Positions 59,088 through 62,656 of a stretch of DNA of 64,000 nt are shown piece by piece; positions within the stretch are counted from its first letter, which is position 1, and every line of letters starts with the position of its first letter. Below the pieces are notes generated by a model, which was not told where the DNA came from, made no database searches, and worked only from the letters and a program-made list of their open reading frames with translations. A program made the position numbers and the translations under genes. Source of the stretch: Spirosoma pollinicola (GTDB lineage: Bacteria; Bacteroidota; Bacteroidia; Cytophagales; Spirosomataceae). The stretch covers positions 930,001 to 994,000 of the forward strand of contig NZ_CP025096.1 in assembly GCF_002831565.1 (NCBI RefSeq), read 5' to 3'.

Positions 59088-59270
59088 ACCCACCACAGCC
59101 CGTCGGCAAACCTAGTTTTATCCATCTTCGTATGCTACAAATTGAGTTTGACAGTTATTAAAACCAGCGTCTCAGCAAACGCTCGTAGCTGTTGAACAAC
59201 TCCGCTTTTTACATCGGTTATTCATTCTGTACAGGCTTATGGTCAGATTTTCTCACCTCGTTGCCCCATC
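59088..59270. other. Intergenic stretch
   Basis: About 180 bp with no gene or hairpin that I can support. It borders the transposase remnant. Confidence 0.3.
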
Positions 59271-60110
59271 TCAGTTGAGATAAAGCCTGGTAAAGCACAG
59301 ACAAGTATCACCAGAAGCCCATGACCACTCCACTTTTAGGGCTATGGTCTGGTTGACGGTAGACTGAGTAGTGAATTTCATATACTTCTCCAGATTGAAG
59401 GCAAGAGCTGCCATCATCATCACTTTGTGAGCCCCAGATTTACAGCGTACATTCACCTTGCGAAGACCATAGAACTCTACCAAACTCCCAAAGACTGGCA
59501 CTACCGTCCGTTGGCGAAGCTTCTTCATGCGCTTGCCTCTCCGACTCAATTGTCGCTCTAGGGCTCGCCGATAGAACGGATCAAAGACAGTCCGGACAAT
59601 TTGTCGGCATTGACTCTTAGGAACGCAATTGGGTTTGAGCGGGCACAGTTTGCAGTCTTGATAATCCGCCCGGTATACTTTCAGCCAGCCTCTATCGGCG
59701 TTTCTGTCAAATGTCTTAAAGGGTAAACGTTTACCTTGCGAACAGGTAAAGTGATCTACGTGAGGATCATAGGGAAAGCCTTCGATTTGGAGCTTATATT
59801 GGCCGAAGACGGGTATCCAGCCAGTGATTTTCCACTGCTTTAATAAAGCGTAGTTACCCCCGTTGGAGTAGCCGCACTGGCGGCCCGGCTGTATCAGTCA
59901 ATAGCTCCTCTAAGATCAGTTTATTGGAGGCTAGCCGCTGCTGAAGCTTCCATGTGATATCGGGCAGACACTTGCTGTCACGGCCATCGGCAAAATCGGC
60001 CGACACATGGCTGATAATACAGGCCTCCAACCCCAGCTAGTCAGTCGGCCCAACTGGTTGTTTCAAAGGCTGCCCGCTCGCCTGAACGAGCAGTAGTTGT
60101 AGAAACTATG
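59271..60110 (-). pseudogene. IS1182-family transposase remnant
   Basis: Reading leftward in pieces gives a DDE transposase C-terminal half: LGLEACIISHVSADFADGRDS, then GYSNGGNYALLKQWKITGWIPVFG, YDPHVDHFTCSQGKRLPF, CKLCPLKPNC and RTVVPVFGSLVEFYG. The pieces are broken by an in-frame TAG just before LGLEAC (a Tyr codon would fit) and by a 16-bp GC-rich insert at 59874-59889 that shifts the frame between LLTDT and GYSNGG. The N-terminal half is missing. No intact ends were found. Confidence 0.8.
59874..59889 (+). repeat. GC-rich micro-insert A (16 bp)
   Basis: GCACTGGCGGCCCGGC. Its exact removal joins the two transposase frames as DTGYSNGG, the motif expected in this family. Shares the core GGCGGCCC with inserts B, C and E, and CACxGGCGGCCC with E. 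Confidence 0.7.
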
Positions 60111-60267
60111 TCGGGTAGATTTTTAAACAAGATTCCTTCGCTCGTTCCACGAAAGCCGCTTCAACTGAGACTTTTTCCGTTTCAGGGAATTGGACGTTGG
60201 TCGATTGGCGTATATACTTGAATTTTGGGCACAAAACAACATCCACCAATTTTCCGGAACCTTCCTT

Positions 60268-61106
60268 ATGAAAAGATCTCCCCGTCTTTCTCTACTTCCT
60301 ATCCTGTTTAAGTCAATATTGGCTCGCACCACACCCAAACCTGAAACGGTTACGCCAGATGGTACCCACGATTGGCACTCAAACGGTGGGCCGCCCTATG
60401 TCACTCCAACCACCATTGTAGGTTCCAACACAAAGGAAGGTTTTGTCGATGCCAGTGGCACGGGAGCCGGACTCAATTACTTTACCCAAAGGGTTCGGCA
60501 GGTTCATTACTTTTCTGGTTTACTATTGGCCACTTTCGTTGCCGTCCACCTAACTAATCACCTGCTGGCCGGCCTCAGCCCAGCTACTCACATCGCTTTT
60601 ATGACTGCCACACGATTGGTATATCGAAATCCTGTTGTTGAAACAGCCTTGTTAGCCGCAGTCACCCTGCAAATTAGCACAGGCATAAGATTGGTTAGGT
60701 CCGTAGCACGACAGAATAGCCATGCCTGGAGCCGTTTGCATATTGGGTCTGGTCTATACTTAGCTTTTTTTTAGTTATTCATGTCAGTGTTATTATGGCT
60801 GGCCGATACGTATGGCACATGGATACTAACCTCTATTTTGGTGCGGCTGGCTTAAATCACTACCCACACCAGCTTTTCTTTATACCATACTACACCCTGG
60901 CGATTCTATCTTTCTTTGGTCATGTGGCGGCCATCCATCGCGTAAAAATGAATCGTAACCTGGGCTCGATCACCCCCTCAGGTCAAGTCCGACTCATCTT
61001 AGTCGTTGGAGCTGTGTTAGCGCTTGGCGTGCTTTACGGAATGTCCAACCGCTTCAAAGGGCTGGCGATCCCCGGGCAGTACACTATTTTAACGCCATCA
61101 ATTTGA
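60268..61106 (+). pseudogene. Multi-pass membrane protein (cytochrome b-like), frameshifted in a T8 run
   Basis: Two adjacent frames join into one protein of about 280 residues: ...LHIGSGLYLAFF, then LVIHVSVIMAGRYVWHMDTN. The break is in a run of eight T at 60765-60772; nine T would restore the frame. About five membrane helices carry His residues (QVHYFSGLLLATFVAVHLTNH, RLHIGSG, LVIHVS, FFGHVAAIHR), as in di-haem cytochrome b-type anchors. I do not recognise a named family. The N-terminal 60 residues are low-complexity. It could be pseudogenised, phase-variable or a sequencing error. Confidence 0.65.
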
Positions 61107-61285
61107 TTGGATACTGGTCAGTAAGTCTACGTGGTGGATGAGCCATCAGCATCAGGCGATGCCGCTTCACAGGGATTATTTGCTGGTTCATCCCCTATTT
61201 TATTGGCTCTATTGACCTAAAGCTGGCTTAACAATCTGTATAGACTAGTTTTATGGTCTAAACCTCCAAGCCTATTCCCTCTGCC

Positions 61286-61333
61286 ATGAACATACTCATC
61301 ATTGAAGACGAAGAACTAGCCGTTCGTAAATTG
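61286..61333 (+). pseudogene. Truncated response regulator, N-terminus only
   Basis: MNILIIEDEELAVRKL is the start of a LytTR-type receiver domain (acidic pair EDEE, then RKL). It is interrupted after residue 16 by the end of the IS1 element at 61334; the following 16 codons to a stop at 61384 are IS sequence. The rest of the gene is not seen on the other side of the element. Confidence 0.7.
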
Positions 61334-61725
61334 GGTAGTGGCTTAATTGCGTTGATCGGCGAAGAAGAACTAATTAATGAATAGGCCGATTGTTGTATCG
61401 TGAACCGCCACTGACTTTGAGAAGCAAATGGTTCGACGGGCCAGTCTCTTCAAGCGTGTTCGAAGAGTAAGATGCTTACGTTCCAGCCCTTGCAATGCCG
61501 CTTTACGAACTAAGCGTAAACGTTGATCTAGGCAGTCAAATTAGGCCCACCAGGAGTCCGTTATCCACCTGATTACCTCGATTTTAGCTTGCTCTAGTAA
61601 GCTAAGTAGGTGGCGAAACGTTTGGTGAGTGCGTCGTCCGAAAACAAAGGCAATGATCTCGCCTGTCACCGCATCCTCCACCCACCACAGCCAACGAGGC
61701 TGTTTTTTCTTACCTACATAGGACC

Positions 61726-61740
61726 GCCCGGCGGCCCGGC
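61726..61740 (+). repeat. GC-rich micro-insert B (15 bp)
   Basis: GCCCGGCGGCCCGGC. Exact removal changes DEM-CRAAGR-SYVG back to DEM-W-SYVG, restoring the conserved Trp of IS1 transposases (compare DEQWGYVG in IS1). Identical in sequence to insert C but opposite in orientation. Confidence 0.7.
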
Positions 61741-61816
61741 ACATCTCATCGACTTTGAGACTCATTTTCAATCCTCTATCGACGTATAAGGGGTTAACAT
61801 GAATGACTTCACTAGC

Positions 61817-61830
61817 GCACGGGCGGCCCC
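61817..61830 (+). repeat. GC-rich micro-insert E (14 bp)
   Basis: GCACGGGCGGCCCC. Removal joins SAQFKKN to ASEVIHVNPLY in one frame. Differs from insert A by one base over the first 13. Confidence 0.65.
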
Positions 61831-61923
61831 GTTTTTTTTAAACTGAGCGCTGACGGTGTTCCGGTTAACGCCCAGGATACGGGCGGTATCCCGTATGCCG
61901 GCTCCATTGAGGACCATCTGAAC

Positions 61924-61936
61924 GGTCCGCCGTTGC
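61924..61936 (-). repeat. GC-rich micro-insert D (13 bp)
   Basis: GCAACGGCGGACC on the minus strand, flanked by ACC on both sides. Removal joins VKEQIT to VQMVLNGAGIRD in one frame. The most diverged member of the set. Confidence 0.55.
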
Positions 61937-61993
61937 GGTGATCTGTTCTTTGACCAAGGGGTCACGGGCCTTGTGAGTATATGTTTGAACAAA

Positions 61994-62008
61994 GCCGGGC
62001 CGCCGGGC
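61994..62008 (-). repeat. GC-rich micro-insert C (15 bp)
   Basis: GCCCGGCGGCCCGGC on the minus strand, identical to insert B in the other orientation. Removal turns CRRT-ARRPG-FVQTYTHK into CRRTFVQTYTHK, as expected after the zinc ribbon. Confidence 0.7.
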
Positions 62009-62198
62009 GGTTCGACGGCAGTCAAAGCATCGGTAGCGTTGAGTGCCTGCACGGGTAGTACCATAGCGTTTGACGTGTTGGGTTTGCCCACAATGCTTAC
62101 AGGAAACGGCTTCTAAGACCATTCACAAAGATCCCTGAATAAACGCAGTTAAGCCACTACCGATTTTGCACTTTCTGAAGCCAAATTATATAACTAAG

Positions 62199-62326
62199 GT
62201 GGCTGTTGCAAAAATCTGGATGGATTTAAGATGCTTTATTCAGTACCTTGTTTCGGCTAAAAAGCGACCTATACTGACCCCTTCTTTGGGCTTACTTATG
62301 CCTTAAAAGACTTTTGCAACATCCAC
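62199..62326. mobile_element. MITE-like element with 18-bp terminal inverted repeats
   Basis: 128 bp bounded by GTGGCTGTTGCAAAAATC (62199-62216) and the complement of GTGGATGTTGCAAAAGTC (62309-62326), 16 of 18 matching. The TGTTGCAAAA word is common at the ends of several IS families. No coding sequence, and no clear target duplication. Confidence 0.65.
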
Positions 62327-62656
62327 TGTGAATATGTTAACCCAGCCTCGAAAAGGAATTATTCTTAAAACGAGTATGAGTAAATAAACAATCAACAAGC
62401 TACTATACAGCAGGTTGTGCTTCCTAGTCAGTTGACTTATTTCCTTACAATCGCTGTATTGCTTTTTCAGGAAAAGAATTGAATGAATCACCCGGTTAGA
62501 ATCTCTTGCTAAGAAATAGTTCCAAAAGGAAAGCAGTGGCAGCCGATGACGGCTTCGGTCCACCACAGAATAGTAGTAAGCTTTCAACTGAGAGAGGCTA
62601 ATCAAAATCACGGCTCCTAATAAGGGAATTGCAGCTGGCAGGTAGTTTGTGGTCAT
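62303..62656 (-). CDS. Hypothetical small membrane protein, C-terminus altered by MITE
   Basis: A 117-residue protein with two membrane segments (LPAAIPLLGAVILISLSQL and LLYSSLLIVYLLILVLRII) flanking a charged segment. No recognised family. The last seven residues (VDVAKVF) are encoded by the MITE-like element, so the original C-terminus was probably longer and the gene may be inactive. Confidence 0.45.
   Translation of the reverse strand: MTTNYLPAAIPLLGAVILISLSQLKAYYYSVVDRSRHRLPLLSFWNYFLARDSNRVIHSILFLKKQYSDCKEISQLTRKHNLLYSSLLIVYLLILVLRIIPFRGWVNIFTVDVAKVF

Follow-up and report, generated by a model that had tools for sequence, protein, structure and literature searches.

Insertion sequences of the IS200/IS605 type leave no target duplication, insert 3' of a fixed short target and use a Y1 transposase, and single-strand transposition favours the lagging strand. 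MITEs carry terminal inverted repeats and produce a target duplication, the GC clusters of yeast mitochondria are longer than 16 bp, and the small dispersed repeats of cyanobacteria, treated by Elhai in 2008, are reportedly very short and proposed to be mobile. Two types of REP sequence are described in the portions of PMC3733652 drawn on here: the GTAG type has an unpaired GTAG tag at one end and a stem of 5–13 bp and is associated with RAYTs, and the CGTC type has a CGTC tag, a stem of 8–9 bp, a loop of 4–5 and no known transposase. What moves in REPINs is a doublet, with no excision of single REPs detected in ~56 million reads (PMC3116915). PMC2884548 mentions small dispersed repeats, ~20 bp long and possibly mobile. 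The GC clusters of yeast mitochondria are GC-rich palindromic inserts of variable presence, also found inverted, that often break the frames of endonuclease genes (PMC7216626, in the section used), and the byp elements of Magnusiomyces are many short frame-breaking inserts, with the proteins of core genes made by translational bypass (PMC5009743, likewise in part).

Here we describe a much smaller unit in Spirosoma pollinicola, starting from a stretch of 64,000 nucleotides (positions 930001–994000 of the 8.79-Mb single-contig genome; hereafter the window) in which an earlier note had pointed to five GC-rich inserts in two transposase remnants. All five are present, and each has exactly empty sites in other copies of its host element (Table 1). 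The proposed boundaries and the size of 13–16 bp needed correction, as the limits shifted and the true unit is 16 bp (15 bp in inserts B and C). When the IS1 copies of this genome were aligned with those of congeneric genomes, the ratio of occupied to empty copies was 7/8 at site B, 7/9 at site E, 2/14 at site D and 2/14 at site C, and six more sites were filled in other IS1 copies; four of the seven occupied copies at site E carry identical inserts, and the other three have one change each. Insert A is filled in the window and in L067 and L044 and exactly empty in 16 IS1182-like copies, a tally that leaves out a fourth occupied row (L095) read as a misaligned junction. Whether homologues share such stretches at the same place, which the earlier note had held to be decisive, thus received a mixed answer, with some copies filled and others exactly empty in several genomes. 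The IS1 host in the window has suffered further damage, as its frame still stops where relatives continue once the insert columns are removed.

Table 1 Positions of the five inserts and their hosts (window coordinates) and of three places sharing an IS110 end (genome coordinates)
Feature	Position	Strand	Description
Insert A	59873-59888	+	CGCA CTGG CGGC CCGG, one stem mismatch; in IS1182-like transposase remnant
Insert B	61725-61739	+	15-bp form CGC CCGG CGGC CCGG; in IS1 copy
Insert E	61816-61831	+	CGCA CGGG CGGC CCCG; adjoins T run of IS1 copy
Insert D	61922-61937	-	CGCA ACGG CGGA CCGT; in IS1 copy
Insert C	61995-62009	-	15-bp form CGC CCGG CGGC CCGG; in IS1 copy
Host of insert A	59230-60018	coding strand -	alignable to IS1182-like copies
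Host of inserts B-E	61370-62162	coding strand -	alignable to IS1-family copies; piece matches DDE_Tnp_IS1
IS110-end copy 1	near 1958733-1959180		beside IS110 copy at 1957849; no element at that site
IS110-end copy 2	8604242 (element)		against copy 1: 464 columns, 447 identities, 16 gap columns, one mismatch
IS110-end copy 3	8560563-8560780		three more elements; 400 columns, 351 identities, 48 gap columns, one mismatch

Three other features of the window were noted. The extra word GGGCCGCCC at 60388-60396 was not counted as an element, as it has neither the tag nor the 4-4-4 hairpin described below. A membrane gene at 60190-61106 is split into two frames and gives a weak DUF4405 match under the curated cut-off. 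A short repeat at 62195-62330 is bounded by inverted ends (...GTTGCAAAA / TTTTGCAAC...) and resembles IS ends near 593973 and 595078, both of which hold an element at the same place.

The unit consists of a tag CGC, one free base and a hairpin with a 4-bp stem and a 4-base loop, 16 nt in all, and it occurs in both orientations. Searches over alternative geometries returned 87 tag-plus-stem matches for a spacer of 1 and a loop of 4, 5 for a spacer of 0 and a loop of 4 (the 15-nt form), and 0–2 for every other combination of spacer and loop. Across 464 kb, mostly selected for holding core matches, both variable stem pairs are complementary in 32 of 41 core matches versus ~2.6 by chance. The same holds for 17/19 and 6/8 matches in contiguous 400-kb stretches of genomes G032 and G019, which were not selected for matches but lie over known IS hits, and which contain 18 and 6 perfect units, respectively. 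The hairpin is predicted to fold only weakly (-2.7 to -3.9 kcal/mol, z of -0.4 to -1.4).

A comparison blind to the motif, in which fetched loci were aligned all-to-all and clean insertions of 5–60 bp recorded, returned the same unit: 163 of 336 insertions are 16 bp long, and 183 of the 219 insertions of 14–18 bp match the core pattern, both being counts in which overlapping loci may register one place repeatedly. The aligned loci are a non-random sample, many of them fetched around core matches or IS copies. Among the 174 contexts that are unique, complementarity holds for pair 5:16 in 142 (mean of shuffles 64, maximum 81), for pair 6:15 in 160 (mean 94, maximum 110) and for pair 1:10 in 166 (mean 130, maximum 143), while pair 2:9 is uninformative (150, versus a shuffle mean of 149). 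The tag is mostly CGC, with C at position 1 in ~149 of these contexts and G in ~20; CGC tags go with CG loops and GGC tags with CC loops. This covariation, seen in pair 1:10, suggests that the tag can pair with positions 8–10. Clustering by flanks reduces the 174 contexts to 121 distinct sites. The flanks predict the variant only weakly (largest mutual information 0.15 bit), in a set selected for perfect pairs, whose internal pairings were therefore left unused.

The unit is also far more abundant than the window alone would indicate. We found 213 matches to the core pattern CGCNNNGGCGGNCC in the own genome versus 13 for the reversed control, which bears out the earlier proposal of dispersal beyond the two transposases. 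Using one genome per species, core matches exceed the control in 33 of 36 genomes of the genus, at least twofold in 30, and do not exceed it in the remaining G007, G008 and G015. Outside the genus, 21 of 23 genomes have 0–4 core matches, and the other two have 81 versus 79 in the control (G047) and 144 versus 91 (G052). The exact 16-mer CGCAACGGCGGACCGT was recovered from at least 119 stretches in 257 Gb, with ~119 expected; since this is near chance, its occurrences in Emticicia, Runella and Fibrella, seen among 17 loci inspected, are leads only. Chance GC-rich words, ordinary decay or assembly error could also be invoked for the inserts, and the word GGCGGCCC, put forward earlier as a signal, indeed falls short of significance by itself, with 5 matches in the window against a shuffle mean of 2.8 and 14 of 100 shuffles reaching 5. 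Such an origin is nonetheless extremely improbable, being contradicted by the excess over the reversed control, by the covariation and by exact 16-bp empty sites in several assemblies.

At the junctions, C precedes the core match in 38 of 41 cases in the 464 kb; in 89 contexts for which this C was required, it follows an A or G in 75, and the element is followed by C or T in 74. Two sites have C ahead of the element in filled copies and A or G at that position in empty ones. Target duplication is absent, and filled sites show a net gain of 16 bp. Elements have no strand bias on the chromosome (+/- by genome quarter of 18/18, 21/19, 1/1 and 5/7), which is unlike lagging-strand single-strand transposition.

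In the own genome, frames interrupted by elements have pieces matching DEDD_Tnp_IS110, rve plus HTH_21 (presumably IS3-like), DDE_Tnp_1_6 or DUF772 (which we take to be IS1182-like), DDE_Tnp_IS1 and Resolvase; other elements are intergenic or occupy both arms of a palindrome. Host genes seem mostly to be avoided, because only 1 of 6 perfect units in the G019 stretch and 4 of 18 in the G032 stretch fall within frames of at least 150 codons, despite the 77% and 75% of sequence that such frames cover. Within 6.5 kb of G032 (L478:8266-14727), nine elements lie amid pieces of IS110-like genes, a cluster that could be either a hot spot or a graveyard of IS elements. Another dispersed hairpin repeat, TTGTCATCCCGACGCAGGAGGGATCTTC, was seen in L140 (643315) and L155 (4405369, 4414274, 4416683), and a relative of it (1369347, 4408321) contains the 16-bp element.

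Individual sites allow a more direct view of gain and loss. Three places in the own genome share an IS110 end together with the same neighbouring DNA (Table 1). Copies 1 and 2 are identical at 447 of 448 aligned bases and differ by one element, and copy 3 is identical at 351 of 352 aligned bases despite its three additional elements, one of which (GCCA CGGG GCGC CCCG) has another tag that still pairs with positions 8–10. Gain or loss of elements has thus outpaced substitution here. The site CGTTTCGTAC/AAAATCCG is known in three states. Three places lack an element there (overlapping loci L104/L105/L138 of the own genome, L016 of G024 and L479 of G032). In S. validum (L201) an ACGG variant occupies the site, and in L148 of the own genome the site holds a GCGG variant, which a nested CAGG element splits in turn. 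In a palindromic repeat with ends CGGGATTTTA, elements occur at one end, both or neither, and the variants differ between copies. This repeat is ~120–180 bp long and recurrent in the genome (L190:4800-5000, L081:2050-2250, L165, L172, L181, L182), and its outer junctions are repeatedly targeted by the 16-bp element.

The fixed length, covarying stem, preceding C, lack of target duplication, nesting, exchange of variants and near-identical copies that differ in elements lead us, on balance, to regard the inserts as probable copies of a 16-bp mobile DNA micro-element, a tag plus hairpin resembling a minimal REP, that would be gained and lost precisely. The earlier suggestion of a dispersed micro-element is strengthened by the precise empty sites, the three-state site and the covarying hairpin, and it understated the extent of the family. 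We infer that the unit would move as a single-stranded DNA hairpin, with a putative factor recognising tag and hairpin that cuts and joins, or copies, the unit at its ends. It could presumably depart without a scar, and an established unit may spread to homologous copies and to opposite arms of palindromes via templated copying of very short stretches. The unit would be tolerated in transposase genes and between genes, and seemingly not in most host genes.

The observations that count against a mobile micro-element include, besides the weak folding, the lack of strand bias and the enzyme searches described below, two that random insertion does not predict. Of 29 sites represented by several contexts, 21 show a single stem type throughout, and pairs of copies picked for comparison have identical inserts with differing flanks. 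In 22 such pairs the inserts are identical in 21 while the flanking bases, taken out to 15 bp, show 76 differences in 660 positions, although the identity figure overstates sameness because the pairs were picked for a common site and nearly always a common variant. Gene conversion with visible tracts was not seen in any of the 22. These patterns could result from a hairpin-biased micro-conversion that requires no dedicated enzyme, in which a rare hairpin arises and is then copied between repeat copies and palindrome arms by loop-templated repair or template switching. This would account for the same variant at the same site in diverged copies of the picked pairs in the absence of a visible conversion tract, and it needs none of the three enzyme classes considered below (Y1, Y2 and reverse transcriptase). 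Many of the hosts are repetitive, being IS copies or palindromic repeats, and of 12 palindromic mirror pairs with flanks that look alike by eye, 11 have the same element in both arms and one is off by one base. We nevertheless consider micro-conversion rather unlikely, since it leaves unexplained the 16-nt length, the conserved core and tag, the preceding C and the spread to 121 sites. Four copies of the palindromic repeat (L165, L172, L181 and L182) hold an element at one end only, and the different stem types at 8 of the 29 sites suggest fresh insertion, although at 4 of these 8 the forms are only two bases apart, so that mutation of one insert is possible there.

It also counts against the micro-element that flanks of occupied copies are closer to one another than to those of empty copies only at site B (P ~0.04) and at the IS1182-like site 388 (P 0.01–0.16). 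The fewest changes on the IS1 tree are 6 for site E (6 of 14 rows occupied) and 4 for site B (7 occupied), and the several changes needed speak weakly against simple descent because 6 of the 11 forks are unsupported.

Profile searches for an enzyme that would move the unit returned seven Y1_Tnp matches in the own genome, and an element lies near one of these loci (L131). A REP-type element moved by a Y1 transposase (RAYT or IS200-like) would fit these matches, as well as the tag plus hairpin, the precise empty sites and the manner of insertion, in which the 16-bp net gain and the C before the core match resemble the IS200/IS605 type. We judge this unlikely, however, as no perfect element occurs in the ~1.5-kb flanks of the other six Y1 loci, G019 and G031 yield no Y1_Tnp match despite their 113 and 192 core matches (24 and 28 in the control), and the strand bias is absent. 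Searches with Y2_Tnp gave no match across the 36 genomes of the genus, and RVT_1 gave none in the element-rich G014, G016, G019, G026 and G034. Y1, Y2 and reverse transcriptase were therefore each rejected as the resident driver, being absent from some element-rich genomes. It is possible that the driver enzyme of the micro-element was lost or has diverged, and that the elements are relics in genomes lacking it. RAYT-like genes in three loci of the own genome (L132, L133 and L134) seem flanked by their own, different repeats, and their translated flanks contain repeated peptides such as VPDSILLS, GRTSCPQC and LTPDRDG.

Since elements break transposase frames, we asked what the frames look like without them. 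Omitting elements, by a rule that also took out some chance matches, extends the longest frame from 147 to 347 aa in an IS110 copy with three elements, which has no other frame defect, and from 205 to 477 aa in an IS1182-like copy with three elements. Values of dN/dS are 0.046–0.100 between IS110 copies, with inserts or without, and 0.07–0.15 between IS1182-like copies. In G035, four IS1182-like copies (L043, L057, L064 and L068) are 100% identical over ~1.7 kb (one pair 99.4–99.5% over a slightly longer alignment) and all carry one and the same insert, which disrupts a frame that is otherwise open; none of five scored candidates in G035 is a close insert-free copy, and the closest insert-free relatives seen are 86% identical and from other genomes. 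The otherwise intact IS110 copy and its low dN/dS, together with the G035 set, are what one might expect if the 16 nt were a bypass element, skipped at the RNA or ribosome level and conserved while the transposases stay functional. From the sequences we consider this very unlikely, as inserts are found in either orientation and in each of the three codon phases, 19 of the 24 perfect units from the two 400-kb stretches lie outside long ORFs, five loci (L044, L046, L049, L067 and L093) fall short of full length even without elements, and the insert-bearing copies 1957849 and 1009992 each have one additional in-frame stop. The same data can be explained by help in trans or by fast turnover. Insert-bearing frames that are otherwise intact would reflect either skipping in expression, transposase supplied in trans or fast turnover of inserts, and we rank turnover first because near-identical copies in different states exist. 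A bolder proposal, that this 16-nt self-folding unit is the smallest known genetic element to move independently, moved by an unrecognised enzyme and silently skipped in transposase expression as a bacterial counterpart of byp, seems to us quite unlikely.

In the literature searched, with subscription papers mostly outside it, we found no earlier description of the 16-bp family. If mobility is true, the unit would be a new lower bound on the size of DNA that comes and goes as a whole and would provide natural before/after pairs within one genome. Mobility of single short palindromes has so far proved difficult to demonstrate, and no excision of single REPs was observed in PMC3116915. Its movement, target choice and possible bypass are open to test in culturable bacteria, and the 16-bp elements explain a sizeable share of the broken transposases examined.

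Among the known systems, the exact 16-bp gain without a duplicated flank excludes a MITE. The unit resembles both REP superfamilies in being a short tagged palindrome that is dispersed, in some inverted pairs and in some cases intragenic, and shares with CGTC REPs the lack of a known transposase, but it differs from the REPs described in the consulted parts of PMC3733652 in its CGCN (or GGCN) tag, 4-bp stem, loop of 4 and total of 16 bp, and in having single units that show exactly empty counterparts and nest within each other. As far as those parts define them, we rejected the GTAG type given the mostly CGC tag, the 4-bp stem, the element at only one of seven Y1 loci and the two element-rich genomes without Y1, and the CGTC type given the CGCN tag with a stem of 4 and a loop of 4. 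REPINs are likewise small palindromic DNA proposed to be mobile, with inverted pairs in both (PMC3116915, in the part used), yet in Spirosoma it is single 16-bp units, not inverted doublets, that differ between near-identical copies. The unit therefore fits no published definition of GTAG REPs, CGTC REPs or REPINs as given in the portions of these sources available to us. The small dispersed repeats of cyanobacteria, compared by description, belong to another phylum, and the Spirosoma unit is 16 bp. Magnusiomyces byp elements lie in core genes (PMC5009743, in part), whereas the 16-bp unit mostly spares host genes and bypass is only a candidate. Yeast GC clusters, again likened by description and from the section of PMC7216626 used, are also GC-rich palindromic inserts of variable presence in both orientations that break frames, and they differ in belonging to eukaryotic mitochondrial DNA. 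By analogy, the way in which the 16-bp unit works may resemble that of a very small REP or of a GC cluster of yeast mitochondria.
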